Positions 6,873-33,372 of a stretch of DNA of 64,000 nucleotides are shown here, one piece after another. A program made the position numbers and the translations under genes. This DNA is from Solimonas sp. K1W22B-7 (GTDB taxonomy: Bacteria; Pseudomonadota; Gammaproteobacteria; Nevskiales; Nevskiaceae): NCBI RefSeq assembly GCF_003428335.1, contig NZ_CP031704.1:744001-808000 (forward strand). The letters run 5' to 3'. Position 1 is the first letter of the stretch; each line of letters begins with the position of its first letter. Below the pieces are notes generated by a model. The model made no database searches. It was given only the letters and a program-made list of their open reading frames with translations, and had not been told where the DNA came from.

Positions 6873-7251
6873 GCCGGGCCTTCCAGGTGGTGCTGTTCGG
6901 GTTGCGGCGCAGCCGCCGGAGCGCAACGCGCGCGCCTTGCAACCTTAGCGGACCCCCAAGCACAGGGCTTGACCGGAAACGACAGGGATTTTGTCCTGGG
7001 GTGACTGCAAAGAGGGTTGGTGATTGTGATTTTTTATTAAATATAAAAAATTTTATTTAATAATTTTATGAGATAGAATCCGCCACCGGAATTCGCTCAT
7101 GCCCGCCGGCGCAGTCACCTGATTCATTTGTCAGATTGCACGGCGCCCCGAAGGCAGGGAAGCTTTGGGCGAGAGCGACACAGGCTCCGGCAAACCATGA
7201 ACCCAGGGAACCCATGCGCCTTTCCGCAACCGGACGGCGTCAAGCAAGCAC
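6873..7251. other. Intergenic region with A/T-rich tract
   Basis: Gene-free divergent region between the SDR gene and the first duplicated small gene. It holds a strikingly A/T-rich tract (about 7029-7070) in an otherwise GC-rich context and a candidate -10 TAGAAT at 7074-7079 with no good -35, then the palindrome at 7117-7136. Confidence 0.5.
7117..7136. promoter_or_regulatory. Candidate operator, ACCTGAT-N6-GTCAGAT
   Basis: A 20-base imperfect palindrome with six-base spacer, 115 bases before the ATG at 7252. It is followed by TTGCAC, as in the sites at 7833, 28197 and 33353 (GTCANRTTGC). Confidence 0.45.
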
Positions 7252-7734
7252 ATGAAAAAAATCATCATCATCGTCGTCATCGCCCTCGTAGTGGGCTTCC
7301 TGATGAAGAAGAAGCCGCAGGCGGAAGCCGCCGACGCGGCCATCGTCAACCCGGTCTATGCCGAAACCCGCATCACCTTCGAAGTCCCCGGGGCCTCGAT
7401 CGAAGGCGTGCTCCTGGGCATCGCCAAGGACGAGGCGGAATGCGAAATGCAGAACCAGATCCTGCAGAGCACGATCCTGGCGGGCTGCCAGGAGTGCAAG
7501 ACCAAGAAGACCGAGTGCTGGTCCAAGCTGGAACCCCGCTACGCCAAGCTGTTCCAGAACAAACCAGCGGCCACCACCTATCTCAGCCTGGCCAAGGGCA
7601 GCGCCGACGAGCGCGAGCACCGCATGCTCTTCTGGGGCATCACCGTGCCGCAGAGCGACATGATCTGCGACAGCGTCGCGAGCATGCAGCGGTCCCGCAA
7701 GGGCGAAGTGCAGTGCATCCGCGCGCCGCGATAG
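7252..7734 (+). CDS. Small N-terminally anchored Cys-rich protein, paralogue 1
   Basis: Unknown 160-residue protein. The N-terminus MKKIIIIVVIALVVGFLMKKK is a single membrane helix or uncleaved signal; the remainder should be periplasmic. Cysteines occur as CEMQ, GCQECKTKKTECWS, ICDSV and VQCIRA, a spacing kept in the second copy, so disulfides are likely. The body reads as mixed alpha/beta with a conserved LEPRYAKLF and RMLFWGITV. It is tandemly duplicated with the gene at 7967 (same length). The upstream palindrome links it to the 22.9-38.8 kb genes. No family recognised. Confidence 0.75.
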   Translation: MKKIIIIVVIALVVGFLMKKKPQAEAADAAIVNPVYAETRITFEVPGASIEGVLLGIAKDEAECEMQNQILQSTILAGCQECKTKKTECWSKLEPRYAKLFQNKPAATTYLSLAKGSADEREHRMLFWGITVPQSDMICDSVASMQRSRKGEVQCIRAPR

Positions 7735-7832
7735 AGGCCCGTTCGTGCTCAGCCCCGCGGTCCATTGACGAGTTGCCGCCAGTCCTTCGACCGCCTCGGG
7801 GAAAACGGCAGGCCGCAGCTGCGGGCATCCTC

Positions 7833-7852
7833 ACCTGACTCGGCTGTCAGAT
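7833..7852. promoter_or_regulatory. Candidate operator, ACCTGAC-N6-GTCAGAT
   Basis: Twenty-base palindrome with a single mismatch between the 7-base arms and a six-base spacer, followed by TTGC. It occupies the same place in duplicate unit 2 as the site at 7117 in unit 1, 114 bases before the ATG at 7967. Confidence 0.5.
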
Positions 7853-7966
7853 TGCGCGTTGACCCGAAGACAGGGAAGCTCTTGGCGGAACCGGCAGCGC
7901 CGCCGGCAAACAACAGAACCAGGGGAACCCCAGCGCCTTCCGCAAAGGACGGCGTCAAGCACACGC

Positions 7967-8449
7967 ATGAAGAAGATCATCCTGTTCGTCGCCATCGTCA
8001 TCGCCCTGGGCTACTTCATGAACAAGAAGCCGCAACAGGAGGCGGTCGCCGCTGTGCTCACAAAGCCGGTGTACATCGAGCTGCGCCTCAGCATGGACAC
8101 GCCGCGCGGCGCGGTTGAGGGCGTGATGCTGGGGCTGGCCAATGACGACGCCGACTGTGAGCTGCAGCTTCAGACCGCGCGGGATTCGATCGGGCGGACT
8201 TGCGAGGAATGCAGGATCAAGACGAGCGACTGCCGGACCCTGCTGGAAGCCCGCTACGCCAAGCTGCTCGACAACAAGCCCACCTCCGTCACCTACCTGA
8301 GCATGGCCAAGGGTGTGGACTGGGAGCGCGAGTACCGCATGATCTACTGGGGCATCACTGTGGCGGAAAGCGACTCGATCTGCGACAAGGCCGCAAAGAA
8401 ACTGCGCCGCCACCAGGGCAAGGTGCAGTGCATTCGCGCGCTGCAGTAG
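7967..8449 (+). CDS. Small N-terminally anchored Cys-rich protein, paralogue 2
   Basis: Unknown 160-residue protein, second copy of the tandem pair. It starts MKKIILFVAIVIALGYFMNKK (membrane anchor) and keeps the cysteines of paralogue 1 (DCEL, TCEECRIKTSDC, ICDKA, VQCIRA) plus LEARYAKLL and RMIYWGITV. The two proteins differ at many positions, so the duplication is not recent, yet length and leader are conserved, which argues that both are functional. The ATG at 7967 aligns exactly with the first copy; a longer in-frame start at 7859 lies inside the duplicated leader and is rejected. Confidence 0.75.
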   Translation: MKKIILFVAIVIALGYFMNKKPQQEAVAAVLTKPVYIELRLSMDTPRGAVEGVMLGLANDDADCELQLQTARDSIGRTCEECRIKTSDCRTLLEARYAKLLDNKPTSVTYLSMAKGVDWEREYRMIYWGITVAESDSICDKAAKKLRRHQGKVQCIRALQ

Positions 8450-8468
8450 TGTTGACGGCCGCGCCGTA

Positions 8469-8489
8469 GGGCGGGTCCTCGACCCGCCC
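8469..8489. repeat. GC-rich hairpin between convergent genes
   Basis: Perfect 9-bp arms GGGCGGGTC/GACCCGCCC with a three-base loop. It sits between the stop codons of convergent genes and may act as a bidirectional transcription stop, although no T-run follows. Confidence 0.5.
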
Positions 8490-8532
8490 GCCGCGGCAGC
8501 GACAGGCGACGCCCCGGCTCGCAGCCGGCCGC

Positions 8533-9546
8533 TCAGCTGCTGCCGGCCGCCTTCTCGCGCTGCGCATACCAGGCCACCGCATCCCGCACCGTCTCCGCCA
8601 CCGGCCGCGGATTCCAGTGCAGCTCGCGGCGCGCCTTGCCGTTGTCCATCCGCTGGAAGGCGTTGGACAGGAACACCGCATCGGTGCTCACCAGGTAATC
8701 CTTGCGCCGCAGCAGCCTGAAGATCCGTTCCGCCACCCAGGCAATGGAATACGCCAGGCGTAGCGGGACCAGTTTCGGCGGCGGATTGCCGCGCTCCGCC
8801 GCCGCCATGGCGTAGAACGCCCGGTTGCTGATGAACTCGTTGGCGATGATGTAGCGCTCGCCAATGCGGCCATGCGCTTCCGCCAGCACCGCAGCCTCCG
8901 CGACATCGCGGATGTCCACCATCGGCGCCCCGGCATCCAGCGCGTACTTCATCGCCCCCCTGGCGGTCTGCCACAGGGCACCGCCATGCGGCGTCGGCTG
9001 GAAATCCTCCGGGCCATAGGTGTTGGCCACGCACAGCGCCACGCCCGGCAGGCCCTGCTCGCGGCAATACGACAGGAAGCGCGTCTCCGCCTCCAGCCGC
9101 GTGAGGATGTAGGCCGACGCACGGTCGCGCCAGTTGAAGGGGATGTCCTCCGTCACCGGGCCGTCCGGGTTCAGTCCCAGCGTGCCCATGGTGCTGGTGA
9201 AGATGAAGCGCTCCACGCCGCAGGCCAGCGCCGCATCCATCGCGTTGACCAGGCCCTCGACGTTGTTGCGGCGCAGCGGCGTCGTATCGGTGAGCCAGAA
9301 GCGCGGATCCAGCACGTTGTAGAACACGCTGCCACAGCCCTCCATCGCAAGGCGCAGCGACGCCGGGTCCAGCACATCGCCGTGAATCACCTCAACCGGC
9401 AGGCCCCGCAGGGCCTCCGCGTTGCTGGTCTTGCGCAGCAGCACGCGCAGCTTCCTGCCCCGTGCGGCCAACAGCCGGGCCACGTGGCTGCCCACGAAGC
9501 CGCTCGCGCCAGCGACCAGCACGGGCTTCTCCAGCGGGCTCTGCAT
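8533..9546 (-). CDS. NAD-dependent epimerase/dehydratase (extended SDR), YxxxR variant
   Basis: Extended short-chain dehydrogenase of 337 residues, similar in layout to dihydroflavonol-4-reductase/3-beta-HSD-like enzymes. The cofactor loop is GASGFVGSH (residues 13-21) and the catalytic region is FTSTMGTLG followed by SAYILTRLEAE. Where these enzymes normally have Y-x-x-x-K, this one reads Y-I-L-T-R, so the lysine is replaced by arginine. The last 70 residues form the usual substrate cap. It is followed on the same strand, 11 bases upstream, by another epimerase-type gene and a SnoaL-like gene, suggesting a three-gene operon (11185 down to 8533) acting on one small hydrophobic substrate. Confidence 0.8.
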   Translation of the reverse strand: MQSPLEKPVLVAGASGFVGSHVARLLAARGRKLRVLLRKTSNAEALRGLPVEVIHGDVLDPASLRLAMEGCGSVFYNVLDPRFWLTDTTPLRRNNVEGLVNAMDAALACGVERFIFTSTMGTLGLNPDGPVTEDIPFNWRDRASAYILTRLEAETRFLSYCREQGLPGVALCVANTYGPEDFQPTPHGGALWQTARGAMKYALDAGAPMVDIRDVAEAAVLAEAHGRIGERYIIANEFISNRAFYAMAAAERGNPPPKLVPLRLAYSIAWVAERIFRLLRRKDYLVSTDAVFLSNAFQRMDNGKARRELHWNPRPVAETVRDAVAWYAQREKAAGSS

Positions 9547-9557
9547 GCGGCTCTCCT

Positions 9558-10667: not shown

Positions 10668-10684
10668 GCCTTCTTCCGGTGAAC

Positions 10685-11185
10685 TCAGGCTGCAGCGCGG
10701 CGCGCCGCGGCCTTGATGATCTTCTGGCGCAGCCAGTCCGAGATGTACACCGAGAAGAACGGTGTGACGATGTCCTCGCGCAGCCGCGTCAGCGTCGACG
10801 ACCGGATGCGCCACTGGCCGCCGCGCTTCTCGTAGGTCTCGTGGTAGTGCCCGTAGCCATGCATGCTCAGCCCCGGCGCCAGGCGGACGAAATCCTCCAG
10901 CGCCCAGATGCCGCGCGCCGTCGTGGGCGAGGTCAGCTCCAGTTCCGGCGCATGCACCTGGTGCACCGTCACCTGCTTCGGTTTTCCCAGGGCGTCGCGC
11001 ACGAAGGCGATGAACTCGTCGGCGCCGTCGATCTTCCTGCCGCCGCTCTCGCGGGTGTCGCTGGCGAAGTCGTCGGTGAAGAGGCCGCGCCAGGCCGCCC
11101 AGTCCTTGGCGTCGAGCAGGCGGCAATAGCGTGCCTTGAGCTGCTTGAGCGCCTCGATGTCGTGGATCGCTTCGATATCGTTCAT
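10685..11185 (-). CDS. SnoaL-like / NTF2-family protein
   Basis: Cone-shaped alpha+beta barrel protein of 166 residues, of the SnoaL_4 type found as dehydratases, cyclases or binding proteins acting on polycyclic or aromatic substrates. The pattern LKARYCRLLDAKDWAAWRGLFTDDF at the N-terminus and the YEKRGGQWRIRSSTLTRLRED strand pair near the C-terminus are characteristic. It is first in a probable operon with two extended SDRs, a combination seen in steroid, terpene or aromatic side-chain metabolism (inference). The ATG at 11183-11185 was preferred to the one at 11218, which falls inside the promoter/operator described separately. Confidence 0.75.
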   Translation of the reverse strand: MNDIEAIHDIEALKQLKARYCRLLDAKDWAAWRGLFTDDFASDTRESGGRKIDGADEFIAFVRDALGKPKQVTVHQVHAPELELTSPTTARGIWALEDFVRLAPGLSMHGYGHYHETYEKRGGQWRIRSSTLTRLREDIVTPFFSVYISDWLRQKIIKAAARRAAA

Positions 11186-11201
11186 GGCCGGCCGGGGTCT
11201 G

Positions 11202-11235
11202 GATATATGAAACAACAATGTTGATTACAACATTG
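11202..11235 (-). promoter_or_regulatory. Promoter with overlapping palindromic operator
   Basis: On the minus strand, TTGTAA (11225-11230) and TATATC (11202-11207) are 17 bases apart. A perfect palindrome CAATGTTG-ATTA-CAACATTG (11216-11235) covers the -35 and part of the spacer, a typical repressor position (TetR-like geometry). It would control the SnoaL/SDR operon. Confidence 0.55.
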
Positions 11236-11252
11236 GTGGCCGGAATTTGCCA

Positions 11253-11693: not shown

Positions 11694-11700
11694 GGGCTTG

Positions 11701-11720: not shown

Positions 11721-11767
11721 TGCACAGTGCAGCCATCGCCATCCGAAGGCAAGAGCAGGGAGCCCGC

Positions 11768-14505: not shown

Positions 14506-14555
14506 AGCGCAAGCCGGGACAGCCCCTCGGGTTTTCCCAAGGCGAAAGAGAAAAA

Positions 14556-22419: not shown

Positions 22420-22708
22420 GTGCTGTTGCTGGCCGGCACCTGGCTACTGTTCAAGCGCCGAAACGCAGGACACCCACCGCCTCTGCTCCCTCGGCGGCGC
22501 ACTGGACCGTGTGCGCAGCGGCGAGAAGCCCGGTGAGACGGGCGAACAGAAGCTCGCGGTGACACCGCAACTCCTGCTCGACGTGGACGCCATCACCGGC
22601 ATGAAAGGCGACGCCAGGCTGGTGATCCAGCGCGCCCAATGGCGTGACGGGCAGGGCGGCGCAGACTCCGGGCGCGTCTGGCAGATCAACCTGCGCTGGC
22701 GCTTCTGA
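22420..22708 (+). pseudogene. Gene remnants: DUF2182-like end and beta-barrel-like C-terminus
   Basis: Two degraded pieces. Bases 22420-22458 resemble the last codons of the DUF2182 gene (VLLLAGTWLLFK against LLLLAGAWLLVK). From 22442 another frame runs without an in-frame ATG near its beginning to a stop at 22708 and ends VWQINLRWRF, a terminal Phe strand typical of outer-membrane barrels. No complete gene is present. The remaining 22709-22965 holds only the palindrome at 22779. Confidence 0.35.
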
Positions 22709-22778
22709 GCAGGGGCAGGGCCTCGCCACTGGCCCTGCCGAAGCAAAGAGAGCGTCGTAGATTCCATTGGCGTCCGAA

Positions 22779-22798
22779 ACATGACACCTGAATCATGT
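22779..22798. promoter_or_regulatory. Candidate operator, ACATGAC-N6-ATCATGT
   Basis: Twenty-base palindrome with one arm mismatch, 168 bases before the ATG at 22966. Its spacer ACCTGA is identical to that of the site at 28160. Confidence 0.5.
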
Positions 22799-22965
22799 CT
22801 CTGTTTCTTCGTTGGAGAAGGGCGGGTTCCGAAGGACAACAAGTGGTTGCCGAGTATCTGTTTGCCGTGCTTTATTTCGCCTATGCAGCACATTCGGCAA
22901 GCCTCGTCCCGAGGAAACTTTCCGACTGCAACGGTCTGTTCGGCAGGTGAGGGTACGAGGCGTAT

Positions 22966-24072
22966 ATGAATACTAAAAAAAATGTGAGCTACAAATGGAT
23001 TTCGAAATGCATTCGGCGGCCATGCCGTTCTTATCTCCGCGCGCTTCTACTCGCCCCGCTACTCCTTCCTTCCACCAGTTTCGCTGCACCTCCAATCGTA
23101 GCGCCTGCAGTGATTGCACCTCCCAGGCCGGCGAGCGGACAATCGGAATCTGCCGGGTCTTACTATTCAGTTTTGAGCGCTCTGCAGAAAGATGTGTCTG
23201 GGTTCCCCCCGCCTGCGGAGTACGTAGTCAACGGGAGCCAGAATGTCAGCACCAACTTGATTGCCGCAAGGCGTATTGTTTTTCTGCCGAATGCGAATTT
23301 GGTTTTCACCGGGCTGCGCAATCCGGGTCCGGTGCAAATTGTAGCTAATGAAATATCGATCCAGGGCAATGCAACAATTTCCTGGGTGCCGGCCTCGGAT
23401 ACCTCAAAAGTGCCCCCGGCGCGGGGCCAAGCACCGAATGGTCTATCTGGTCGATTCAGTGGAGAGCCTGGATCTCGTGGCAACGATGGAGAACCAGGAA
23501 ATAATGGATACAGCGGGGCAACGGCGCCGTCCGTATTGCTTCTTGCCTCGACGATAACTGGGAGCGGCCTGCTTGCCCTAGACCTCCGGGGCCAAAGCGG
23601 TGGCCTGGGGGGGCAGGGCCAAGCTGGCGGCGATGGCGGGCCGGGAGCTCGCGGTGAAAACGCCAAGGAAGCGCCTTTTGCAGGTTGTCGTGCCGGTCCG
23701 GGTTCTGGAGGTACGGGTGGGGATGCAGGCGGCGGCGGGCGTGGTGGGAGCGGTGGTGCCGGTGGTGATGGTGGAGATTTTGCCCTTGTCGTCGCCGATA
23801 CAACATTGGCGGATCGATTTCGAGTCTTCAATGACGGTGGGTTGGGAGGCAAGGGCGGAACGGGCGGGCCTCCCGGTAAGCTTGGGATTCCAGGGAGTGA
23901 AGGGGCGACGACTGGGTGGTGCCAATCCGCCTCTCGACCTGGAACTTCCGGGAAGTTGGCGAGTGCGGGATTGGACGGGCCGAAAGGGGGCGATGGGGTG
24001 GTCGGCAAGTTCTCGATCATTCAGGCAACTCCAGAACAGTTGCAGGCCTTTCCTCCGAGCCGCGCCCAATAG
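22966..24072 (+). CDS. Secreted glycine-rich collagen-like protein
   Basis: Protein of 368 residues with a long basic N-region and signal peptide ending PSTSFAAPP. Residues about 70-160 form a strand-rich region (NVSTNLIAARRIVFLPNANLVF, VQIVANEISIQGNATISWV) like a short parallel-beta or polysaccharide-binding fold. It is followed by glycine-rich repeats such as GGLGGQGQAGGDGGPGARG and GGTGGDAGGGGRGGSGG, interrupted by a hydrophobic strand. This looks like an extracellular matrix or scaffold protein. First gene of a four-gene operon with two proteases; the next gene starts six bases after its stop. Clearly more A/T-rich than the flanks at its start, hinting at transfer. No named family. Confidence 0.7.
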   Translation: MNTKKNVSYKWISKCIRRPCRSYLRALLLAPLLLPSTSFAAPPIVAPAVIAPPRPASGQSESAGSYYSVLSALQKDVSGFPPPAEYVVNGSQNVSTNLIAARRIVFLPNANLVFTGLRNPGPVQIVANEISIQGNATISWVPASDTSKVPPARGQAPNGLSGRFSGEPGSRGNDGEPGNNGYSGATAPSVLLLASTITGSGLLALDLRGQSGGLGGQGQAGGDGGPGARGENAKEAPFAGCRAGPGSGGTGGDAGGGGRGGSGGAGGDGGDFALVVADTTLADRFRVFNDGGLGGKGGTGGPPGKLGIPGSEGATTGWCQSASRPGTSGKLASAGLDGPKGGDGVVGKFSIIQATPEQLQAFPPSRAQ

Positions 24073-24078
24073 GCCTCC

Positions 24079-25092
24079 ATGAAAGCCTGGGCTCGACGCG
24101 TTTGCGTGGCGGCTGTGGCGCTCAGGGCTGTCTGCATTCCCGCTTCCGCCGATGCTGATGCTCTTCCAGGTGCAGAAGCAGACAAAACTCCCCGGCTGGC
24201 CCTGGTAATCAGCACCAGTGAGTATGGCGACCATAGACTTAGCAATGTGAGCAATGCCTTAAATGACGGCCGCCTGGTTGCCGAAAGACTCGTCGCCAGC
24301 GAGTTTGACACGGTGCTGCGGGAAAACGCTGATTACGAGTCCATACTCACCGAAGTGGATGACTTGGCAGATCGAAGAATTCGATTGCAAAAGAATCGTC
24401 GAGTCCGGCCGCTTGTCGTCGTTTACTTTTCCGGACACGGATATCGTGCAGGAGACAACGATTTCATCACCGGGAGCGACGTCAATTTCGACAGCCCCAC
24501 TGAGAGCAGTGTTTCGGTTCAGTGGATAATGTCTCGCTTGGCATCAGACTCGACAGCAATCATTTTTGTAGATGCGTGTAGAAGTCATTTGGCAAAGGCG
24601 ATTGACAACGAAGATCCGCTGGCCAAGGCGTTCGCCCCCATAGAGGATCGTCGGGAGCGGGAGAGTGAGCAAATTCTCTACCCAACGAGGAACTGGCATG
24701 CGAGGAATGGTATGTATTTGTTTGCCACGGAACCCGGAAAGGCGGCGTGGAATAGTGCTAAACGGTCGCCGCACAACAGTCCATTTGCCCAGCAGATAGG
24801 AGTAGAGCTGAATAAGCCTGGAGTGCCGCTTGCATCTCAGATAACTGGAATTATCAAGGGAGTCGGCACGGCAACAGAAGAAAAGCAGGCTCCACAGCCA
24901 GTTGGATCAGTCGGCACGGTTTATCTTCTAGAGAACGAAGAGTCTCAGGAGGAAATGCAGCAAAAGTGGAATCGGGCCCGGACGTCCGCGACCCTGGACG
25001 ATGTAAACCGCTATTTGGACGACTATCCGGCGGGACCTTGGCGATCCGCTGCGATTGAATGGCTGGACCACAACAAAGGGGAATCAAGATGA
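24079..25092 (+). CDS. Secreted caspase-like peptidase (C14)
   Basis: Cysteine protease of the caspase/metacaspase fold, 337 residues, with an N-terminal signal peptide (ending about PASADA). The p20-like core has RLALVISTSEYG, the catalytic His120 in VVVYFSGHGY and the catalytic Cys167 in AIIFVDACRSH, so the dyad is intact. ALNDGRLVAERLVA matches the helix following strand 1 in this family. The p10-like part contains LFATEPGKAAWN and SPFAQQI. The C-terminal 70 residues (EEMQQKWNRARTSATLDDVNRYLDDYP) are helical. Its stop overlaps the next ATG (ATGA), so expression is coupled to the trypsin-like protease, a possible substrate or activator. Export makes it unlike cytoplasmic defence caspases. 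Confidence 0.85.
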   Translation: MKAWARRVCVAAVALRAVCIPASADADALPGAEADKTPRLALVISTSEYGDHRLSNVSNALNDGRLVAERLVASEFDTVLRENADYESILTEVDDLADRRIRLQKNRRVRPLVVVYFSGHGYRAGDNDFITGSDVNFDSPTESSVSVQWIMSRLASDSTAIIFVDACRSHLAKAIDNEDPLAKAFAPIEDRRERESEQILYPTRNWHARNGMYLFATEPGKAAWNSAKRSPHNSPFAQQIGVELNKPGVPLASQITGIIKGVGTATEEKQAPQPVGSVGTVYLLENEESQEEMQQKWNRARTSATLDDVNRYLDDYPAGPWRSAAIEWLDHNKGESR

Positions 25093-26003
25093 CTGCCTGC
25101 TCGTATCCGGCGGCGAGAATCATACTCATGGGAGTCGCCCTGGTTTTTGGTGGATTTGCGAGCGCTCAAGACGAGGATATTCCACCCCTGAAACCGTATC
25201 AGGCAGCGCTTGATAACTACAAGAATCGTGAAAAGCTTGGGCGAAAGATTTTCCAGGGAATTCCGGCGACATTTTCAGATCGCCCATGGCAAGTGGGCCT
25301 GATGGTTCACGCGATCAGCGATCCCATGTACGCCCACTACTGCGGGGGCGTGTTGATCGACAGTACAACTGTATTGACTTCTGCGCACTGCGTATCTGAA
25401 GGGCAAACTGCCGGGGACATCGACATCCTTGCGGCCACCGATGATCTAACGGCGGCGGGGCAGCGCATCGGAGTAAGCGTGATATGCATTCACGAGGACT
25501 ACGTTCCATCCACCCATGCGAACGACATCGCAAAGCTGGTCCTTGGTGGAGCCATCACGAGCCCCGCTGTTCCAATAAAGCAATTGGCCTCCAAGGCAGA
25601 TATAAAGAAAGGCTCCAATGTCACGGTCAGTGGCTGGGGAAACATTTATGACTGGGGGTTGAAGTCCGAAAAACTTCTGAAGATTGTGATTCCGATCCAA
25701 TCGCAGAAGCTATGCAATGCAAAGGACGCATATGGCGGGAGAGTTCTGGGTGATATGTTTTGCGCCGGAAAGGCTGAAGGCGGAATGGATGCCTGCAATG
25801 GTGATTCTGGTGGCCCGGCAACGCTGGGGGATGGCGCGAATGCACATCTTGCGGGGTTGGTGAGTTGGGCAAGGATCAAGAGCTGCGGCCTGGCAAAAGT
25901 CTACGGCGTTTATACAAATGTTCCGGTGCTGTCCGGTTGGATTGATACTCCAATTGTTTCTGACTCTAAAGGCCAGCAGCCGAATCCGAAGGGCTGCAAG
26001 TAA
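25089..26003 (+). CDS. Trypsin-like serine protease zymogen (S1A)
   Basis: Secreted chymotrypsin-fold protease of 304 residues. Signal peptide to about residue 26, propeptide to about Lys53, then IFQG...RPWQVGL in place of the usual IVGG. Catalytic triad His100 (LTSAHC), Asp146 (HANDIAKL) and Ser240 (NGDSGGP) are all present. Asp234 in DACNGDSGG is at the S1-pocket position, predicting cleavage after Lys or Arg; the Lys before IFQG suggests autoactivation or activation by a similar enzyme. Coupled to the caspase gene by a 4-base overlap. Full length for the family. Confidence 0.9.
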   Translation: MTACSYPAARIILMGVALVFGGFASAQDEDIPPLKPYQAALDNYKNREKLGRKIFQGIPATFSDRPWQVGLMVHAISDPMYAHYCGGVLIDSTTVLTSAHCVSEGQTAGDIDILAATDDLTAAGQRIGVSVICIHEDYVPSTHANDIAKLVLGGAITSPAVPIKQLASKADIKKGSNVTVSGWGNIYDWGLKSEKLLKIVIPIQSQKLCNAKDAYGGRVLGDMFCAGKAEGGMDACNGDSGGPATLGDGANAHLAGLVSWARIKSCGLAKVYGVYTNVPVLSGWIDTPIVSDSKGQQPNPKGCK

Positions 26004-26035
26004 TGCAGTGGCGTTGCCGAATGAAGGGGGAATCC

Positions 26036-27313
26036 ATGAAAACGCGTTGGGGGATTGCACTGATGCTGTCTGCCTGCTTGTTGTCGAGCAGTGGAAGTGC
26101 CGCAGAGAGTTCTGCGGATACCGCCAGCCCGTCTGACGGTTGCGACAAAGCTACGGTGCCTGAAGGAAGCAGCGATGCGGTGAAGGCGGTGTATGAGGCT
26201 CTCCAGGCCAAGTGCGCGGAGCTCAAGCTGCAGAATGTCACTGATACGATAAAAAACCTGAAGGTGCAGGGCCTGATCGCTTCCTTGGGAAGCTTCTCGG
26301 ACATCAAATCGCTGAGCGGCGAGATAAAGAACCCCGAGAAGGCTGATCATCTGGGCGAACTGCTTGCGGGGCGAGTCCTGTACACAGCCGGACAGAAAAT
26401 CGGCGGGAAAGTTAAGGGAAGACTTGATCCGCTGAACAAGATTACGATAATCGTTGATCCAAAGGTGACCTCGATGAGGGGAGCCCTGGAGATCGCAATG
26501 CAGGATTTGAGTAGCCACGAGGCGGCAATTTTATCCTCGAGTGCGAAGGCCAGCACGGCGCTAAAGGATGCGCCCGCAGCGGGAGGCAGCGAGAATCGGA
26601 TGGGGCCGGCAGCCATGATTGCTTTGGTGCCACCCGTGATTGAAGCAGCGAAATCAATCGGTGGCCTCTTCAAGGACGAGACCACGCTTTCCGCTTTGCC
26701 GGTAAAGGGGGATTCAAACCTTCTGATTGCTGGCTTTCGTGATTGCGTGGAAACAACTGCCATCCTGCATGTTCCTGGGTTTGGGACGATGGGCAGCGCC
26801 TTCGCGAAGAAATTCTCCACGATCCAAAGGGCTTCGGATACCGCGCGTCTTCTGGTGGGAAAGCTGGAAGCGGAATCCGAGAGGATCAAGGGGAAGGCTG
26901 GTAAGAAAAGGAATGAAGAGCTGAAAGTGGCGGAAGAGGGTCTGGAGGGGGCGCTTAAGGCTTTTGAACTGTATGCGAGCAGGCTCCACGAGCCCCTTAA
27001 GCCGGATGTGACAGAAACGTTGTTCGAAAAACTTGCGATCACATCCGAGACGTTCGGGGATTCGCAATCGGCGTACCTGGTTCTATATGCGTCGCAGCTA
27101 GGTGCAAGTGGTGGTACGCGAAAGCGAACGTTTGGATCGGATCAATTGGCCTATCTCGCGAGCTCCAACGTTCTGTTCCTCATCCTGAGCAAGGATGGAA
27201 ATCTGATCTATAGTGGGGCAGTCGATGGCACTGTTGCTCTAAAGACTACGATTTCGGCAGCGGCCGATGATATGCGTGCTGCGACCGGTACTTCTGTCTG
27301 CCCCACGAAGTAA
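26036..27313 (+). CDS. Exported protein of unknown function in caspase/trypsin operon
   Basis: Protein of 425 residues with a signal peptide (MKTRWGIALMLSACLLSSSG). The mature part is mostly helical: DAVKAVYEALQAKCAELKLQ, a hydrophobic segment AAMIALVPPVIEAAKSIGGLF and a charged coiled-coil-like stretch around AERIKGKAGKKRNEELKVAE; the C-terminus (LAYLASSNVLFLILSKDG) is strand-like. The internal hydrophobic segment could insert into a membrane. The ATG at 26036 begins the signal peptide, although an ATG overlapping the previous stop at 26003 is also in frame. Last gene of the operon. No homology recognised. Confidence 0.65.
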   Translation: MKTRWGIALMLSACLLSSSGSAAESSADTASPSDGCDKATVPEGSSDAVKAVYEALQAKCAELKLQNVTDTIKNLKVQGLIASLGSFSDIKSLSGEIKNPEKADHLGELLAGRVLYTAGQKIGGKVKGRLDPLNKITIIVDPKVTSMRGALEIAMQDLSSHEAAILSSSAKASTALKDAPAAGGSENRMGPAAMIALVPPVIEAAKSIGGLFKDETTLSALPVKGDSNLLIAGFRDCVETTAILHVPGFGTMGSAFAKKFSTIQRASDTARLLVGKLEAESERIKGKAGKKRNEELKVAEEGLEGALKAFELYASRLHEPLKPDVTETLFEKLAITSETFGDSQSAYLVLYASQLGASGGTRKRTFGSDQLAYLASSNVLFLILSKDGNLIYSGAVDGTVALKTTISAAADDMRAATGTSVCPTK

Positions 27314-27316
27314 ATC

Positions 27317-27367
27317 AAAAAGGGGCCAGGCTTGACCTTTGTCCAACAAAGTCGATCCTGGCCCCTT
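27317..27367 (-). terminator. Terminator behind the membrane protein gene
   Basis: Stem AAGGGGCCAGG/CCTGGCCCCTT (27320-27330 with 27357-27367) with further T residues on the minus strand (A-run at 27317-27321). It separates the convergent operon end at 27313 from the gene ending at 27429. Confidence 0.65.
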
Positions 27368-27428
27368 GACCGGCCTGCATGTTCTTCGGGCTTGGCCTGC
27401 GCTGGAAACTCTCCGCCGTGGAGTCCCG

Positions 27429-28082
27429 CTACCGCCGATACGGCAACACGCTGGTGCGCTCTTCAGGCGTGGTGATCAGCGGCAGCGTGCGGCTGGCGAC
27501 CATCCAGGCGATTCCGAAAGCCACCAGTCCCGCCGTCTCGCAATAAAGCACCAGGGCCGAGTCCTTGTTTGCAGCCTTGTCGGCCAGAACCGCATCCAGC
27601 CCGATCAGCGCAATGGAAGCGATGATGATCGCGCCACAGGCTGCGTAGATGCTCGCGCGCCAGTTGGCCTGCCGATGCTGCTTGGCCCGTGCACGCCGGT
27701 AGAAAACGACACACATGCCCGCCAGCACCAGGAACATCGCGGCGGCGCTCGCAATGTGAGCCGTGTTGATCAAGTCCTCTTTCCGGCAGCCGCAGGCGCA
27801 GGGGCACAGGGCAACGCCCAGCGCGGCCAGCGCGGCGATCTTGCTCATGAACCACTCGCTTGCATGCTCGCCGTTGTAGGCCAGCAAAAAAGAGCTGATG
27901 GCAAACAGGAAGCCCACGAAGACATTCCGCGCCATGTCGTCGGCATGATACGAGGCACTGATCGAAGTCAGATCCTTCCCTGCGAGCGCCATGGCAAAGA
28001 ACGGAAGGGTCACTGCAATGAGCCCGACGATGAGCTTCAGGACGTGATGATCGATCTCGTACTGCTTGAACGTGGCGCGCAT
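27429..28082 (-). CDS. Multi-spanning membrane protein, DUF998-like
   Basis: Membrane protein of 217 residues with six hydrophobic segments. The sequence ISASYHADDMARNVFVGFLFAISSFLLAYNG and the later NTAHIASAAAMFLVLAGMCVVFYRRA resemble a widespread family of small membrane proteins with a conserved SxSAYYH...RDxFVG motif, often filed under DUF998; that link is tentative. CPCACGC in the loop after helix 3 is unusual and could bind a metal. The ATG at 28080-28082 has GGAGG upstream on its strand; a longer frame to 28244 is rejected. Divergent from the unit starting at 28295, with candidate operators between them. Confidence 0.65.
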   Translation of the reverse strand: MRATFKQYEIDHHVLKLIVGLIAVTLPFFAMALAGKDLTSISASYHADDMARNVFVGFLFAISSFLLAYNGEHASEWFMSKIAALAALGVALCPCACGCRKEDLINTAHIASAAAMFLVLAGMCVVFYRRARAKQHRQANWRASIYAACGAIIIASIALIGLDAVLADKAANKDSALVLYCETAGLVAFGIAWMVASRTLPLITTPEERTSVLPYRR

Positions 28083-28159
28083 CCCCAAGCCTCCGATGAC
28101 ATTCCCCAAACTCACGTTAGTGCGCTTTCGGGCGAGAAGCAACGGCGGTCTGTAGAGGC

Positions 28160-28179
28160 TGATGACACCTGACTCATGC
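28160..28179. promoter_or_regulatory. Candidate operator, TGATGAC-N6-CTCATGC
   Basis: Imperfect palindrome sharing ATGACACCTGA and TCATG with the site at 22779, including the spacer. It lies 78 bases before the minus-strand start at 28082. Confidence 0.4.
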
Positions 28180-28196
28180 ATCATGATTTGGAAACA

Positions 28197-28216
28197 ACCT
28201 GACTGGCCTGTCACGT
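28197..28216. promoter_or_regulatory. Candidate operator, ACCTGAC-N6-GTCACGT
   Basis: Seven-base arms with one mismatch, six-base spacer, followed by TGCAG, as in the site at 33353. It lies 79 bases before the plus-strand start at 28295. Confidence 0.5.
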
Positions 28217-28294
28217 TGCAGCACTTGGGTTGCACGCGCAGCATGAATACCGGGGCGCGGAAACAAGCGCAGGGACCAAGGCTAGGGGAGCAGC

Positions 28295-28789
28295 ATGAGC
28301 ATCAGGCAAGTGGAAGTCCCGGACAACAGTTCGGGCGATATGAATTTCACCGCCACGAAAGTCGTGGCTGCCGTACCGCACTCGCATGCGTACTCGCCGC
28401 ATGCCACCGCCAGTTCGGTGTTGTTCACTGACCTGAGTGCCCGCGCCCAGGACGCGGGCGGCGTAGCGGCGATCTCCGCCACGCTGCAGACCACCCTGGA
28501 GGGCCGTGCGCCAGGCCGGGTCCGGATTGACGTCCGTGGAAAAGTCGTGCTGTCCGCCGGCGCCAAGGCCGCCGTCTACGTGCTGGACGGCAGCACCCGG
28601 CGCGGCAAGAAGTTCACCAACCGCGACCAGGACCTGTTCATCAGCTGGACCCGGCGTGCAAAGCCCGGAGAAGTCCTGCAACTGACCCTGTTCGCCACGA
28701 CGCGCGTAACGGCGAAAGTCGGTGGAGGACTGGAAGGATTCGTGGAGCTGGACTCCATCGACATGGTGTCGCTGGCTTCGAAAAAGTAA
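28295..28789 (+). CDS. Unknown beta-rich protein (164 aa)
   Basis: Cytoplasmic-looking protein of 164 residues with no signal peptide or membrane segment. Alternating hydrophobic strands (VRIDVRGKVVLSAGAKAAVYVLD, DLFISWTRRAKPGEVLQLTLFATTRV, GFVELDSIDMVSL) suggest a beta-sandwich. GGGGAGCAGC precedes the ATG. First gene of a unit with the 191-residue protein and the ATP-grasp ligase downstream. No family recognised; it could be a carrier or substrate-presenting protein for the ligase, but nothing in the sequence proves that. Confidence 0.55.
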   Translation: MSIRQVEVPDNSSGDMNFTATKVVAAVPHSHAYSPHATASSVLFTDLSARAQDAGGVAAISATLQTTLEGRAPGRVRIDVRGKVVLSAGAKAAVYVLDGSTRRGKKFTNRDQDLFISWTRRAKPGEVLQLTLFATTRVTAKVGGGLEGFVELDSIDMVSLASKK

Positions 28790-28907
28790 GCGACGAAAAG
28801 TGCCCGCTTGAAGGGGCCGGATTCGAACTCCCCAGGAGCGAAGTCGATTCAACGCGAAGTGTCCTGAAAGCCTCGGAGGCCGAGGCTTCTACAACCGGAG
28901 GAATGTC

Positions 28908-29483
28908 ATGCTGATCTATCGTGTCCTGGACGTGGTGGTGGTGCGGCAGGAAGGAAAACTGGTGGTGATGGCCAGCGGGCTGGCTTCGTCGACGGGCTGG
29001 ACCCACCCGAAGCTCGACAACAGCCATGATCCCAATCCCAAGGACAAGATCGCCGAATTCACTTTCGAAGCGACGCCGCCTGCAGGTCCGGCTTTGCAGG
29101 TGATCACGCCGATTGCCGCGACCGCGGTGATCGATGACGCCATCGATGCGGTCCTGGTCAAGGCTCGCACCAACAGCATCAGCGTGCACGTGAGCGAGTT
29201 CGTATCCCAGCAGGTGGGCGCCAGCTCGCCCGCCAATCCCGGCCTGCGAGCCCTGAGCCTCCGCGCCGGACCCTCCAACGGCCTGACGCCGATCCCGCCC
29301 GACGGTGGCGATGGCTGGCCGCCGTATCCGCGTTGGCCTTTCCCCGGCTGGCCGCCGATTCCGCGCTGGCCACATCCCAAGACGCTGGCCATCGGCGAGG
29401 AGCATGGTCCCTGGACCACCTCGCCGCTGATCGACGATCCGATGAATCCCCTGATGCGCGGCTATCCCTTCGGTCAGTACTGA
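28908..29483 (+). CDS. Unknown protein with Pro/Trp-rich C-terminal segment; possible ATP-grasp substrate
   Basis: Protein of 191 residues in two parts. Residues 1-115 form a strand-rich domain (MLIYRVLDVVVVRQEGKLVV, AATAVIDDAIDAVLVKA). Residues 125-191 are low-complexity: a Pro/Trp/Arg repeat (WPPYPRWPFPGWPPIPRW) and a tail containing Thr, Ser, Lys, Asp and Glu (KTLAIGEEHGPWTTSPLIDD). A strong GGAGG precedes the ATG. The stop TGA is immediately followed by the GTG start of the ATP-grasp gene, so the two are made together. The leader-domain-plus-tail layout resembles a modified-peptide precursor, though it is longer than known graspetide precursors. Function otherwise unknown. Confidence 0.55.
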   Translation: MLIYRVLDVVVVRQEGKLVVMASGLASSTGWTHPKLDNSHDPNPKDKIAEFTFEATPPAGPALQVITPIAATAVIDDAIDAVLVKARTNSISVHVSEFVSQQVGASSPANPGLRALSLRAGPSNGLTPIPPDGGDGWPPYPRWPFPGWPPIPRWPHPKTLAIGEEHGPWTTSPLIDDPMNPLMRGYPFGQY

Positions 29484-30362
29484 GTGGCCCTGCTACTGGC
29501 CGGCGGTGCGCTGGATCCGAATCTGTCGTGTGTCGCTGCGGCATGCTCGCGAACAGGCGCACCACTGGTTGATTGCCGGTTCGAGCAGGAAAGCAGCCCG
29601 GCGTTCAGCTGGCAATTGGGCCCGGGGGCGGCGGACGCCGGCGAACTCGCCGGCGTCGCCGCCGCTTTTTTTCGCTACGACGTATTCACCCCGGTGTCGT
29701 CAGGCGAGCAGGCCAGCACGCTGCGAGCCTCTGCGTGGTTCCAGTGCGTGAACGCCTGGGTGCTGTCGCGTCCCGGCGTCCGCGCGCTCAATCGGGACAT
29801 GAAGCAGGCCGCCACCAACAAGATCGCCGTACTGGCCCTCGCCGAAAAGCAGGGTCTGCGCATCCCCCGCACGCGGGTCTCCAACCTGCAGGAGCATGCA
29901 ATGGCGATGGCAGCCGGCGGCGGTGTCACCAAGCCGGTCACCGGGGGCGACTACTGCCGCTTGCTGCAGGACGTGCTCCCCGGCGTCGAGTTCCGGCACG
30001 GCCGGGCACCCCTGCCTGCTTTCCTGCAGGAGCGCCTCAGCGCGCCGGAGATCCGCCTGTATGTGGTGGGGGAACACCGCTTCGCGTTCGAAATGCGCAG
30101 CTCGTCCCTCGACTACCGCGAGCACCAGGACGTGGACGTGCTGCCGGTCGAAGTGCCGGCGGAAGTAGAGCCGCTGCGTGCGCTGATGGCTTGCCTGGGG
30201 ATGGACTTCGGAGCGGCGGATTTCAAAACCGACCCGGCCACAGGCAAGCGCATCTTTCTTGAGTTGAACAACAGCCCGATGATCGCCAACTTCGACCAGG
30301 TGGCCCAAGGGGCCATTGCGGATGCCATCGTCCGAACGCTGCTGCCATCTGGTGGCGTCTGA
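29484..30362 (+). CDS. ATP-grasp ligase, related to RimK/graspetide synthetases
   Basis: ATP-dependent carboxylate-amine (or ester) ligase of 292 residues, starting at the GTG right after the upstream stop. NKIAVLALAEKQGLRIPRTRVSN is the usual entry to the ATP-grasp fold; VTKPVTGG gives the ATP-binding Lys. EIRLYVVGEHRFAFEMRSSSLDYREH and the C-terminal FGAADFKTDPATGKRIFLELNNSPM supply the acidic/Asn metal ligands (D...E-x-N-N). The order closely follows MvdD-like ligases that form lactam or ester crosslinks in graspetides, but the N-terminal domain is short and divergent. The likely substrate is the product of the coupled upstream gene (inference). Confidence 0.75.
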   Translation: MALLLAGGALDPNLSCVAAACSRTGAPLVDCRFEQESSPAFSWQLGPGAADAGELAGVAAAFFRYDVFTPVSSGEQASTLRASAWFQCVNAWVLSRPGVRALNRDMKQAATNKIAVLALAEKQGLRIPRTRVSNLQEHAMAMAAGGGVTKPVTGGDYCRLLQDVLPGVEFRHGRAPLPAFLQERLSAPEIRLYVVGEHRFAFEMRSSSLDYREHQDVDVLPVEVPAEVEPLRALMACLGMDFGAADFKTDPATGKRIFLELNNSPMIANFDQVAQGAIADAIVRTLLPSGGV

Positions 30363-30754
30363 GTCCGTATCCTTGCCGACGGCCGCCAGCGCGTGGAAGA
30401 AGGGATTGGAACGGCCTGCGTGAAAAGTATCGAGGCCCTTTTTTTCCGTCCATGTGCAGGGCGTGGCTGCCGGAGCGGGTCTGGAGTCTGTCGCGGAAGG
30501 CGGATCAAGGAATCCGAAATCGTCGAGTCCCATCAACATGACAGTCGAGTCATGTGTCATGTCGAGATGATCAGATGTCAGCGTCCACCGCGCCACGCCA
30601 CGCCACGGCGTCCCCGATGAATTTTCTGTTTCAGCCGTTGCTGCTGCAGCGGCAGGGAGGATAGGGTAGAAGGACCGCGCATCCGATTGATCGGGGGAAT
30701 CATGCAACTGGATCTTTGTCCACGACGTGATCGCTGCACCACGGAGCTTGCGCA
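30363..30754. other. Intergenic region upstream of the protease-nuclease gene
   Basis: About 390 bases without a supportable gene. It contains the palindrome at 30537-30556 and a short C-rich stretch with two CCACGCCACG-like repeats (about 30588-30605). No clear terminator for the ATP-grasp gene was found. Confidence 0.5.
30537..30556. promoter_or_regulatory. Candidate operator, ACATGAC-N6-GTCATGT
   Basis: Perfect 7-base inverted arms with six-base spacer AGTCGA, 199 bases before the ATG at 30755. The closest relative is the site at 22779. Confidence 0.55.
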
Positions 30755-32902
30755 ATGGTGACGCTCGTCGGTGAGGTCAAGGCCGCACGCCAGGCCGTTC
30801 TTGCCGAGGCCCTGCAGCGCTGGGAGCGGCACGCACGCCGCCGCGATGCCGACAGGAAATCCATTGCTGCCCAGGGCCCCGGCGCCGCGGATTCCGAAAT
30901 TCAGCGCAAGCGCTATGCCGAGCGCGAGGCACGCCGCAAGGCCATCCAGCAGTTCTCTGCTGCCGAGCGAATGATCGGAGATGCCTGGGAGCCCACCGTC
31001 TTCGCTCCGAGCGAACGCGCGCGCCAGGCGGCCATCCCGGTGGCACGCATCGTCACCCTGCCGGGAAAAGGTTATGAAGCCCAGGGCGTGGCTACGGGCT
31101 TCCTGATCAGTCCCGGGCTGTTGATGACCAATCATCACGTGTTCCCGGATCCCAGCTATGCCCTCAGCATGGGCGCCAACTTCCTGCACCAGACCGACGA
31201 GAAGGGAAAGCAGCTCGGCATCTTCTTCGCGGTGGAGCCCGAGACCTTCTTCCTGTCCGACGCCGTGCTCGACTATGCGATCGTCGCGGTCGCAGCCCGT
31301 GGCACCAACGGCGAACGCCTGGAAGACCTCGGCTTCGTCCGGCTGATCGAGGCGGCGGGCAAGATCCTGAAGGGCAGGCCGGTCAACATCATCCAGCACC
31401 CCGGTGGTGGCGCCCGGCAATACGCCACCACCGGAAACCTGCTGCTCGACATCCTCGACGAAGGCTTTCTCCACTACGAGGCTGACACCGCCCAGGGTTC
31501 CTCCGGATCGCCCGTGTTCAACGAAAACTGGGAGTTGGTCGGACTCCACCACTGCGGCATCCCGGATAGCAGGGATGGGCAGATCCTGCGCGACGACGGC
31601 AACCCCTGGAATGCCGAGGGCGATCCGGAGGACGACATCCACTGGCTCGCCAACGAAGGCGCCCGGGTAAGCCACATCGTCGCCAGCCTCAAGATGGTCC
31701 GGGTCGAAAGCGAGGCCCAGCAGCGGATGCTGACCGAGCTGCTGACCAGCACGGCGGATCCGCTGCGCAACGTACAGATCGAATCGGCGGCACCGGATGC
31801 CGCTGAAATGAGTTCAAAGGGAGGGGTTGGCATGGCGCAGAACATCTTCAACATCAGCGGCAACGTCACCATCAATTTCGCCGCGCCGGCGGCTGCGGCT
31901 GCCGTGGTTCCGCCCGAGAAGCCGGCACCCACCCCCAAACCGATTACCGCGCTCGAAAAGACCCAGACCTTCGATCCGGACTATGCGGAACGCCCGGGAT
32001 ACGACCCGGATTTTCTTGGCGTGGAGGTGCCGCTGCCAGGCGTGACAGCGGCGCGAGCCGAGGAGCTGTATACGGTAGACGACTATCGGGCCTACCTCGC
32101 TGAAGACCGCAACGCCATCGAACTGGACACGCACAACCTCGGCGGCACAGACCCGCTGGAGCTTCGCTACCATCACTTCTCGCTCGTCACCAACAAGAAG
32201 TACCGCATGCCCATGTGGACCGCGGTAAACGTGGACTACAGGGCCGAGGCCCGCGAAGACCCGCGGTCCCGCCAGGATTTCGGCGGCGAGAACTGGCGGC
32301 TCGATGGTCGCGTGCCCAAGAAGTTCCAGCTGGTGGATGCCGACATCTACGGCCCCGCCGGAAACTTCGATCGCGGCCACATCGTGCGGCGCGACGACAA
32401 CTGCTGGGGAGAATCGGGGCTCCCCACGGCCTACGCCAACGCGGACACCTACCACTGGACCAACTGCACCCCGCAGCACGAGTTGTTCAACCAGGAAACG
32501 CCCGACGGCAAGGAATATCGGGGGCGCATCGGAATCTGGGGAGCGTTCGAGGGGCGGCTCGCCGACCAGATCGAGGCAGGCGGCGGACAGGCCGTGATCT
32601 TCGCCGGGCCCGTGCTCGGCACGGATGGCCGGACCCATGACTTCGGCCGCGGTCGGGTGTGGTATCCGCTGAAGTTCTGGAAGGTCGTGATCGTGCCGGA
32701 AACCACCCGTCGCCGGCCCAGGCTCCTGGCCTATGGTTTCGTGTTCAACCAGAGCGCGGTGATCAAGGAGTTTGGCCTCGACATCAAGGAGGGGCTGGAC
32801 CTGACCGGGTTCGGGCGGCAGGCAAAGTCGATCAAGGCCATCGGCGAACTGGCCGGCATCGAGTTCCCCGATGTGGTGATCGCCGCGGATCAAGCCCCCT
32901 AG
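30755..32902 (+). CDS. Trypsin-like protease fused to a DRGH (NUC-type) endonuclease
   Basis: Single polypeptide of 715 residues with two catalytic modules and no signal peptide. Residues about 20-70 form a charged helical region. Residues about 95-310 are a trypsin-like/HtrA-like protease domain with His128 (MTNHHV), Asp173 (VLDYAIVAV) and Ser250 (QGSSGSPVF). A linker follows, with an odd hydrophobic patch (NIFNISGNVTINFAAPAAA, about 363-383) and Pro-rich stretch. Residues about 440-700 are a DNA/RNA non-specific endonuclease domain with DRGH (539-542) and HWTNCTPQHELFN supplying the metal-binding Asn. Protease and nuclease in one chain suggests proteolytic release or control of the nuclease. 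Preceded by its own candidate operator, followed by repeats; probably monocistronic. Confidence 0.85.
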   Translation: MVTLVGEVKAARQAVLAEALQRWERHARRRDADRKSIAAQGPGAADSEIQRKRYAEREARRKAIQQFSAAERMIGDAWEPTVFAPSERARQAAIPVARIVTLPGKGYEAQGVATGFLISPGLLMTNHHVFPDPSYALSMGANFLHQTDEKGKQLGIFFAVEPETFFLSDAVLDYAIVAVAARGTNGERLEDLGFVRLIEAAGKILKGRPVNIIQHPGGGARQYATTGNLLLDILDEGFLHYEADTAQGSSGSPVFNENWELVGLHHCGIPDSRDGQILRDDGNPWNAEGDPEDDIHWLANEGARVSHIVASLKMVRVESEAQQRMLTELLTSTADPLRNVQIESAAPDAAEMSSKGGVGMAQNIFNISGNVTINFAAPAAAAAVVPPEKPAPTPKPITALEKTQTFDPDYAERPGYDPDFLGVEVPLPGVTAARAEELYTVDDYRAYLAEDRNAIELDTHNLGGTDPLELRYHHFSLVTNKKYRMPMWTAVNVDYRAEAREDPRSRQDFGGENWRLDGRVPKKFQLVDADIYGPAGNFDRGHIVRRDDNCWGESGLPTAYANADTYHWTNCTPQHELFNQETPDGKEYRGRIGIWGAFEGRLADQIEAGGGQAVIFAGPVLGTDGRTHDFGRGRVWYPLKFWKVVIVPETTRRRPRLLAYGFVFNQSAVIKEFGLDIKEGLDLTGFGRQAKSIKAIGELAGIEFPDVVIAADQAP

Positions 32903-32916
32903 GGAAGCTCTGATTA

Positions 32917-33021
32917 AGTTGCCGTTCGCCCTGAGCCTGTCGAAGGGCGGGCGGCAACTCATTGACCGGCCGTGGGGAAAGTCCACCCGTGCTTCGACAG
33001 GCTCAGCACGAATGGACTTTT
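32917..33021. repeat. Two adjacent hairpins built on a dispersed CCTGAGCCTGTCGAAGG repeat
   Basis: First hairpin: arms AGTTGCCG/CGGCAACT around TTCGCCCTGAGCCTGTCGAA (about 32917-32959). Second: arms AAAGTCCA/TGGACTTT around GCTTCGACAGGCTCAGC (about 32979-33020). The second is the inverse orientation of the same common bacterial intergenic repeat. They follow the stop at 32902 and could end transcription. Confidence 0.6.
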
Positions 33022-33063
33022 CAGAGGGTCCCTAGTGTCCTGAGTTAGAAGTTCGCTGCAATC

Positions 33064-33196
33064 GTCCCCTCTCCCGCCTGCGGGAGAGGGTGCCCGGAGG
33101 GCGGGAGAGGGTTTCTGTAAATCGTCCTGTGGTTAGCCCAGTCTAGATTTACAGAAACCCTCTCCCCTCTCGCCTAACCCCTCTCCCGCCTGCGGG
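33064..33196. repeat. Inverted pair of CCCCTCTCCC repeats
   Basis: Two copies of CCCCTCTCCCGCCTGCGGGA flank a perfect 21-base inverted repeat (33103-33123 and 33146-33166) that includes GAGGGTTTCTGTAAATC. The whole could form a large cruciform between the protease-nuclease and lipoprotein genes. The rest of 32903-33473 holds no gene. Confidence 0.7.
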
Positions 33197-33352
33197 AGAG
33201 GGGACGCCGTTTAATTCAACGAACTTCCAATTCACGATACGAGTAGCGCAGGGATGCAGGGCGGGCAAGCCTTCCGGCTTCGCCCGCGCGCGCCCTCGCT
33301 TGCCGCGCGCCTGTATCGCCGCGCCCTTCACCGTTCCCCCCGGCCTCATGAG

Positions 33353-33372
33353 ACCTGACAGTGTCGTCAGGT
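33353..33372. promoter_or_regulatory. Candidate operator, ACCTGAC-N6-GTCAGGT
   Basis: Perfect 7-base inverted arms with six-base spacer AGTGTC, followed by TGCAG. It lies 102 bases before the ATG at 33474 of the lipoprotein/patatin unit. Confidence 0.55.

Follow-up and report, generated by a model that had tools for sequence, protein, structure and literature searches.

Lux boxes, the operators of LuxR- and LasR-class activators, are 20-nt palindromes that lie just upstream of the -35 element and 42.5 nt upstream of the transcription start site, according to one study (PMC7585371). Two regulators of the TetR type are also relevant here. LuxR of Vibrio harveyi is presented as an activator and repressor of many genes with a 21-bp dyad operator, and the mycobacterial FasR as a TetR-like activator, in the respective articles (PMC2628434; PMC7382501). 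The present analysis concerns a palindrome, ACCTGAC-N6-GTCAGGT, which recurs upstream of genes in a 64-kb stretch of bacterial DNA (G000:C1:744001-808000, hereafter the window) from the 5.37-Mb genome G000. Together with its occurrences in three congeneric genomes (G001, G002 and G003) it almost certainly defines a real, genus-restricted regulon. On balance, we read the palindrome as the operator of a single transcription factor that acts as a dimer and occurs in this genus alone, with a TetR-family protein as the best candidate, which would activate many accessory genes and repress its own gene. Literature searches on the palindrome listed the precedents above and, among the titles listed, no paper on this motif; a search under candidate genus names, themselves guessed, listed no paper on such a regulon as judged by title and abstract.

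Palindromic sites in the window and in related genomes

The window contained seven matches to ACMTGACN6GTCAKGT with up to three mismatches, and every one of them had two mismatches or fewer (Table 1). The count at three mismatches is weak evidence when taken alone, because about five matches are expected (mean 4.96 by chance) and 26 of 100 shuffles reached seven, which is not significant. At up to two mismatches, seven matches were observed against 0.4 expected. Five sites remained at one mismatch or fewer, compared with none in 60 Markov shuffles and with 0.6 expected from the genome average. All seven sites were intergenic, in a window that is 84% coding and 16% non-coding by our own gene calls; these calls are home-made and weak in stretches of low G+C content. 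The original prediction of seven intergenic palindromes of a 7-6-7 layout, two of them with perfect arms, was thus borne out. Most of its coordinates stood, with two corrections: one of the perfect sites begins at 30536 rather than 30537, and in place of the site at 28160 a better palindrome, still a weak one, lies 7 bases further on. Measured distances of 78-199 bases from the sites to the start codons of plus-strand genes agree with the predicted range of 78-200 bases.

A genome-wide scan of G000 listed 50 sites with at most one mismatch to ACMTGAC-N6-GTCAKGT, and at up to two mismatches 98 sites were found versus 20 for the reversed pattern. The stricter form ACCTGACN6GTCAGGT, again with at most one mismatch, occurred 45 times in G000 and 12, 18 and 21 times in the three congeners (reversed control 0, 0, 1 and 1), whereas each of the 76 other relatives in the set of 80 genomes, G000 included, had between none and two. 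Exact copies of this form were present in two of 369 genomes of the class, with eight in G000 and one in the other. The motif is therefore restricted to one genus among the relatives compared. The spacing of the arms is also preferred: in a scan of G000 for CTGAC-N2to12-GTCAG the 6-base spacer was the commonest (17 among the 39 listed of 83 matches; reversed control 25), and the seven matches listed with a 5-base spacer were all copies of one repeat.

Loci were fetched around every listed site with at most one mismatch in the four motif-bearing genomes, in the case of G002 from the stricter pattern. These sites were intergenic in 101 of 110 cases, although only 14% of the fetched loci is non-coding, and the inclusion of weaker sites gave 110 of 121. 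The analyses of gene-facing sites below cover 95 sites that have a gene no further than 320 bases away; they leave aside the 11 of 121 sites inside called genes, the 15 of 110 intergenic sites with no usable gene-facing stretch within 320 bases, and two-mismatch sites outside the fetched loci. Clusters of site-neighbouring genes were shared as well. An SDR gene, a DUF4124 gene, a TetR gene and an iron-alcohol-dehydrogenase-like gene kept their sites in all four genomes, and a PilZ gene in three of the four. The labels TetR, DUF4124, SDR and PilZ, like pgsA-like, CRP, ClpB and ketosynthase below, were assigned first by eye and then by Pfam scan. Intergenic enrichment before genes beyond chance, throughout the genome, and the retention of sites before the orthologues of these clusters in relatives are what a regulon-type operator, as originally proposed, should display.

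Within the window, a DNA search with positions 22700-39700 in the three congeners returned repeats and, among the matches listed, a single other match of 73% identity over 401 bases. Orthologues of this stretch are likely absent from the congeners as judged from these matches, but this is not proven because the scored candidates were swamped by repeats.

Table 1. Predicted operator sites, target genes and candidate regulator (positions refer to the window unless a genome coordinate is given; ORF, open reading frame; aa, amino acids)
Feature	Position	Strand	Mismatches	Remarks
Operator ACCTGATTCATTTGTCAGAT	7117..7136	+	2	-35 TTGCAC 7136-7141; -10-like GAAGCT 7159-7164; 115 bases 5' of ORF 7252-7734
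Operator ACCTGACTCGGCTGTCAGAT	7833..7852	+	1	-35 TTGCGC 7852-7857; -10-like GAAGCT 7875-7880; 114 bases 5' of ORF 7967-8449
Operator ACATGACACCTGAATCATGT	22779..22798	+	1	no canonically spaced promoter; 167 bases 5' of ORF 22966
Weak palindrome ACCTGACTCATGCATCATGA	28167..28186	.	2	originally placed at 28160
Operator ACCTGACTGGCCTGTCACGT	28197..28216	+	1	-35 TTGCAG 28216-28221; -10 CAGCAT 28239-28244; 78 bases 5' of ORF 28295
Perfect operator ACATGACAGTCGAGTCATGT	30536..30555	+	0	no canonically spaced promoter; 199 bases 5' of ORF 30755
Perfect operator ACCTGACAGTGTCGTCAGGT	33353..33372	+	0	-35 TTGCAG 33372-33377; -10 TTAAGT 33395-33400; predicted start site near 33407
Target, 160 aa	7252..7734	+		Cys-containing, hydrophobic N-terminus (by eye); no Pfam family
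Target, 160 aa	7967..8449	+		paralogue of the 7252 protein (BLASTP cluster)
Putative operon	22966..27313	+		368-aa protein without Pfam family, caspase (Peptidase_C14), trypsin, 436-aa protein without Pfam family
Target unit, three ORFs	28295..30362	+		no Pfam family in any; originally described as ATP-grasp unit
Target, 715 aa	30755..32902	+		trypsin-like protease fused to DNA/RNA non-specific endonuclease
Target unit	33474..38828	+		474-aa protein, weakly alpha/beta-hydrolase-like (below Pfam's cut-off), and 1290-aa patatin-like protein
Candidate regulator, TetR family	G000:C1:1421962-1422609 (L043:1560-2216)	-		PF00440 TetR_N 47.7 bits, cut-off 24

Promoter geometry at the sites

When the 57 sites facing a single gene were oriented, the clearest conservation outside the arms was seen at downstream positions. 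The dinucleotide TG was present at positions 21-22 in 20 of the 57 sites, against a mean of 4.0 and a maximum of 14 at other offsets, and together with the last T of the operator it forms the TTG of a -35 element. At positions 43-48, 17 of the 57 sites (8 of 28, 2 of 8, 4 of 9 and 3 of 12 in the individual genomes) carried the A and T of a -10 hexamer, compared with a mean of 2.1 and a maximum of 6 at 108 other offsets. This places the -10 element 17 bp after the -35 element. Among the 95 gene-facing sites defined above, the -10 pair stood at position 43 or 44 in 41, while other offsets gave 10.5 on average and 17 at most. The flanks were otherwise little conserved in an alignment of sites from the four genomes. 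A large minority of the sites thus has a fixed -35/-10 spacing, and the geometry is activator-like and near that of the lux box: the centre of the site lies at about -44.5, with the start site placed only from the -10 element, and that of the lux box at -42.5. We consider it likely that the sites with this canonical spacing serve activation.

Tests on the -10 element replaced a combined -35/-10 score. With the latter, the 95% null was exceeded by 59 of the 134 orientations that face a gene but also by 30 of 100 orientations facing no gene; it was dropped as evidence because the last base of the operator supplies the first T of the -35 element and because the non-facing orientations passed as well. 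Percentiles of the distance from site to start codon were not used as evidence either; the pairs lie within 320 bases by construction.

In the window, the sites at 7117, 7833, 28197 and 33353 have TTGC at the -35 element, and the place of the -10 element is occupied by an A/T pair or by TTAAGT. They are exactly the four sites that had been set apart as a subtype followed by TGC, and TGC therefore belongs to the -35 element. A canonical -35/-10 spacing was looked for and not found at 22779 and 30536, which are of the ACATGAC type, or at 28167. Both of the proposed subtypes exist, but in unequal numbers: 68 of the 95 sites have ACC and GGT ends and 19 contain ACA or TGT, and the -10 spacing was present in 34 of the former versus 4 of the latter. 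The suggestion that the divergent region 28083-28294 holds one site for each direction survived in part. The site at 28197 has promoter elements towards the plus-strand gene, whereas that at 28167 is without canonical spacing either way.

Sites less than 50 bases from a start codon showed the -10 spacing in 4 of 19 cases, and its absence from most of them would fit repression. Sites this close to the start were found in the congeners at a PilZ gene and at a pgsA-like gene for a CDP-alcohol phosphatidyltransferase, at a distance of 31-35 bases.

The candidate regulator and competing explanations

The TetR gene was the only regulator gene among the four clusters of site neighbours common to all four genomes. 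At E<=1e-20 it was detected in exactly the four motif-bearing genomes of the 80 and in none of the other 76, so that its distribution matches that of the motif; at E<=1e-18, in a phylum-wide scan of 398 genomes that scored only the leading few candidates in each, it was detected in one, namely G000. The orthologues of the other three genomes shared 83-84% identity with the protein of G000, and their N-terminal third hardly varied. Two palindromic operators lie in the gene's own promoter. All four species have the same 20-mer, AAATGACTCGTTAGTCAGAT, 53-62 bases upstream of the gene, and in each of them TGAC-N6-GTCA occurs a second time 38-39 bases nearer the gene. In the upstream alignment (69% mean column identity) the block of identity around the 20-mer comprised 29 columns and the second site was nearly invariant. 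Distribution and promoter together suggest that the TetR protein is probably the regulator of the regulon.

A TetR dimer would bind the palindrome. At canonical targets the operator would extend from about -54 to -35, and the bound protein would aid RNA polymerase at a poor promoter with a TTGC-type -35 and a degenerate -10 element. For its own gene, and where a site lies no more than about 50 bases from the start codon (the SDR, PilZ and pgsA-like genes), repression would be the more likely outcome. The protein would resemble V. harveyi LuxR/HapR as a TetR-family global regulator with a dyad operator of about 20 bp, and its nearest solved relatives include FasR (38 bits), which acts as an activator (PMC2628434; PMC7382501). 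The similarity to FasR is remote, with 41 bits to the NCBIfam FasR model (cut-off 330), and that to the HapR model is only 24 bits (cut-off 350); all NCBIfam matches fell below the cut-offs of named subfamilies. The sequence of the V. harveyi operator also differs from the one described here, and the geometry abutting the -35 element is lux-box-like. An acyl-CoA-like ligand might be guessed from the nearest solved relatives.

Several observations weigh against the TetR protein as an activating regulator. Most TetR proteins are repressors. The link to FasR is weak: no Foldseek match was obtained at E<=0.001, and Foldseek hits carry little weight here because the predicted structure is poor (mean pLDDT 57). 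Outside TGAC-N6-GTCA the sites in the TetR promoter are poor, one having two mismatches and the other, by eye, at least three, and chance alone would produce two-mismatch matches at a rate of about 0.4 per 64 kb. Other constraints may act on this promoter, because the conserved block is longer than the operator. Activator spacing is lacking at the sites of the TetR gene, of its divergent neighbour and of the SDR gene, and at more than half of all gene-facing sites (41 of 95 possess it, with 10.5 expected by chance). The co-occurrence of TetR gene and motif in one genus proves little, because any genus-specific gene would show the same. Finally, other potential regulators exist: G000 has 33 GerE-domain matches, each potentially able to bind a lux-box-like site, and in G002 a site lies 146 bases upstream of a CRP-family gene.

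The GerE proteins offer an alternative, in which the palindrome is a true relative of the lux box and is bound by a LuxR-type activator other than the classical acyl-homoserine-lactone receptor. Lux boxes have ACCTG ends, and the palindrome, which reads ACCTG-N10-CAGGT, shares with them these ends and its length of 20 bp; its centre is predicted near -44.5, against -42.5 in lux boxes, and its inner bases, TGAC-N6-GTCA, differ. The survey of the 33 GerE matches comprised 30 fetched loci, 29 of which were read (L156 gave no gene call), with three matches outside it, and 29 of the 30 fetched loci had no site with at most one mismatch. In L151 a single two-mismatch match, at the margin of a small GerE ORF, was treated as chance. 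The acyl-homoserine-lactone receptors themselves are disfavoured, as Autoind_bind (PF03472) was found in 24 of the 80 relatives but in none of the four motif-bearing genomes. No LuxI synthase was found in G000, where the only PF00765 match, itself over the cut-off at 31 bits, scores much higher with the GNAT model PF13444, at 107 bits. A GerE-type activator is thus an unlikely, if credible, owner of the sites. The PF00765 match itself (G000:C1:3848482-3848841, L017) is followed by an ORF that appears acyltransferase-like by eye, an arrangement of the ornithine-lipid type rather than of LuxI. Seven of the GerE-domain ORFs in G000 are small, at 54-107 aa by the calls of our own script (L142, L147, L149, L151, L157, L160 and L163).

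It is rather improbable that the regulator is a genus-specific protein other than those considered and that the TetR gene is merely one of its targets. The sites in the TetR promoter are not the best matches, and palindromes of 20 bp are bound by many families of regulators; against this, no second regulator appeared among the four shared clusters, a comparison that covers site-neighbouring genes only.

The original prediction had likened the 6-base spacer to that of CRP/FNR-family sites. A CRP/FNR-family factor with altered specificity would be in keeping with this spacer, with the activator position and with the CRP-family gene of G002 (L092). However, CRP and FNR sites read TGA-N6-TCA, whereas the distance between TGA and TCA is 8 here and the layout is nearer to that of the lux box. 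The motif does not extend beyond one genus, unlike CRP, which occurs widely in the class, and the -35/-10 spacing at the L092 site points to the other gene. On the grounds of half-site spacing and genus restriction this explanation was rejected as very unlikely.

A dispersed REP-like element (repetitive extragenic palindrome), conceivable in a genus rich in dispersed palindromic repeats, can be set aside with near certainty, for the 6-base spacer and the flanks vary, no conserved sequence extends beyond the arms, where only the -35, -10 and arm-adjacent bases stand out, and a true repeat of the genus (L174-L182) has alike flanks, unlike the operator. An RNA element was rejected as well; an Rfam scan of the window at the gathering cut-off gave no match.

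The true repeat was read at nine places in G000 and G001. It is a larger imperfect palindrome with CTGACATTGAGTCAG at its centre, and several copies are headed by GTAGGAGCGGC, which is REP-like; it shares the half-sites of the operator but has a fixed 5-base spacer. Dispersed repeats also occupy positions 32894-33205 of the window, a short way upstream of the site at 33353. With a single exception, the matches listed in the DNA search of the congeners fell in this interval (at least 50, 64 and 60 matches in the three genomes).

Target genes and implications

The original prediction had named enrichment before related protease and hydrolase genes as support, and such genes are represented in the window (Table 1). 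In G000 as a whole they do not make up most of the regulon: 26 of 43 scanned site-associated proteins had no Pfam family. The 43 proteins are a hand-chosen subset of the G000 targets, some of them later operon members, and were scanned in part at E<=0.01 (10 proteins) and at E<=0.001 (30 proteins), with 3 taken from another 9 scanned. The families found in the remainder included caspase, trypsin, RDD, TerC/DUF475, tannase, penicillin amidase, solute-binding protein and OmpA, and further NHL, AAA, endonuclease and patatin. With the hydrolase protein as query, 15 loci were found in other genera at 31-45% identity. The expectation that housekeeping genes are spared failed in part, given the sites before the pgsA-like and PilZ genes of the congeners and a site in G000 between a clpB-type gene and its divergent neighbour. 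At the iron-alcohol-dehydrogenase-like locus it is the divergent gene (199 aa, no Pfam family) that has activator spacing in G001-G003. Many of the targets are uncharacterised accessory proteins, and promoters seem to enter and leave the regulon quickly.

Two neighbouring features may be mentioned. Near the TetR locus a large gene on the minus strand (L090:2-3022) encodes ketosynthase and nitronate-monooxygenase-type domains according to Pfam, and its product looks by eye like a PfaD/ketosynthase protein of polyketide or polyunsaturated fatty acid (PUFA) synthesis. In the window, positions 42478-43833 encode a Schlafen AlbA_2 domain protein, beside a stretch (44001-52000) of 51-57% G+C, compared with 64-69% in most of the window.

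As a tentative wider interpretation, a genus-specific TetR protein may have become a global activator through lux-box-like operators abutting the -35 element. Although it belongs to an unrelated protein family, it would have converged on the promoter architecture of quorum sensing, and it would capture newly acquired, mostly uncharacterised accessory genes into a fast-changing regulon. The analysis yields a set of about 50 promoters that can be tested as a regulon, and it names a candidate for their regulator. One possible signal would group many proteins without a Pfam family with the caspase/trypsin, protease-nuclease and hydrolase/patatin units of the window, and so give a way into what they do. 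Should the TetR protein prove to be the activator, the regulon would be a clear example of rewiring on a global scale, in which the promoters resemble those with lux boxes and a LuxR receptor is absent; such promoters under a TetR-type regulator would be an unusual combination, if shown.

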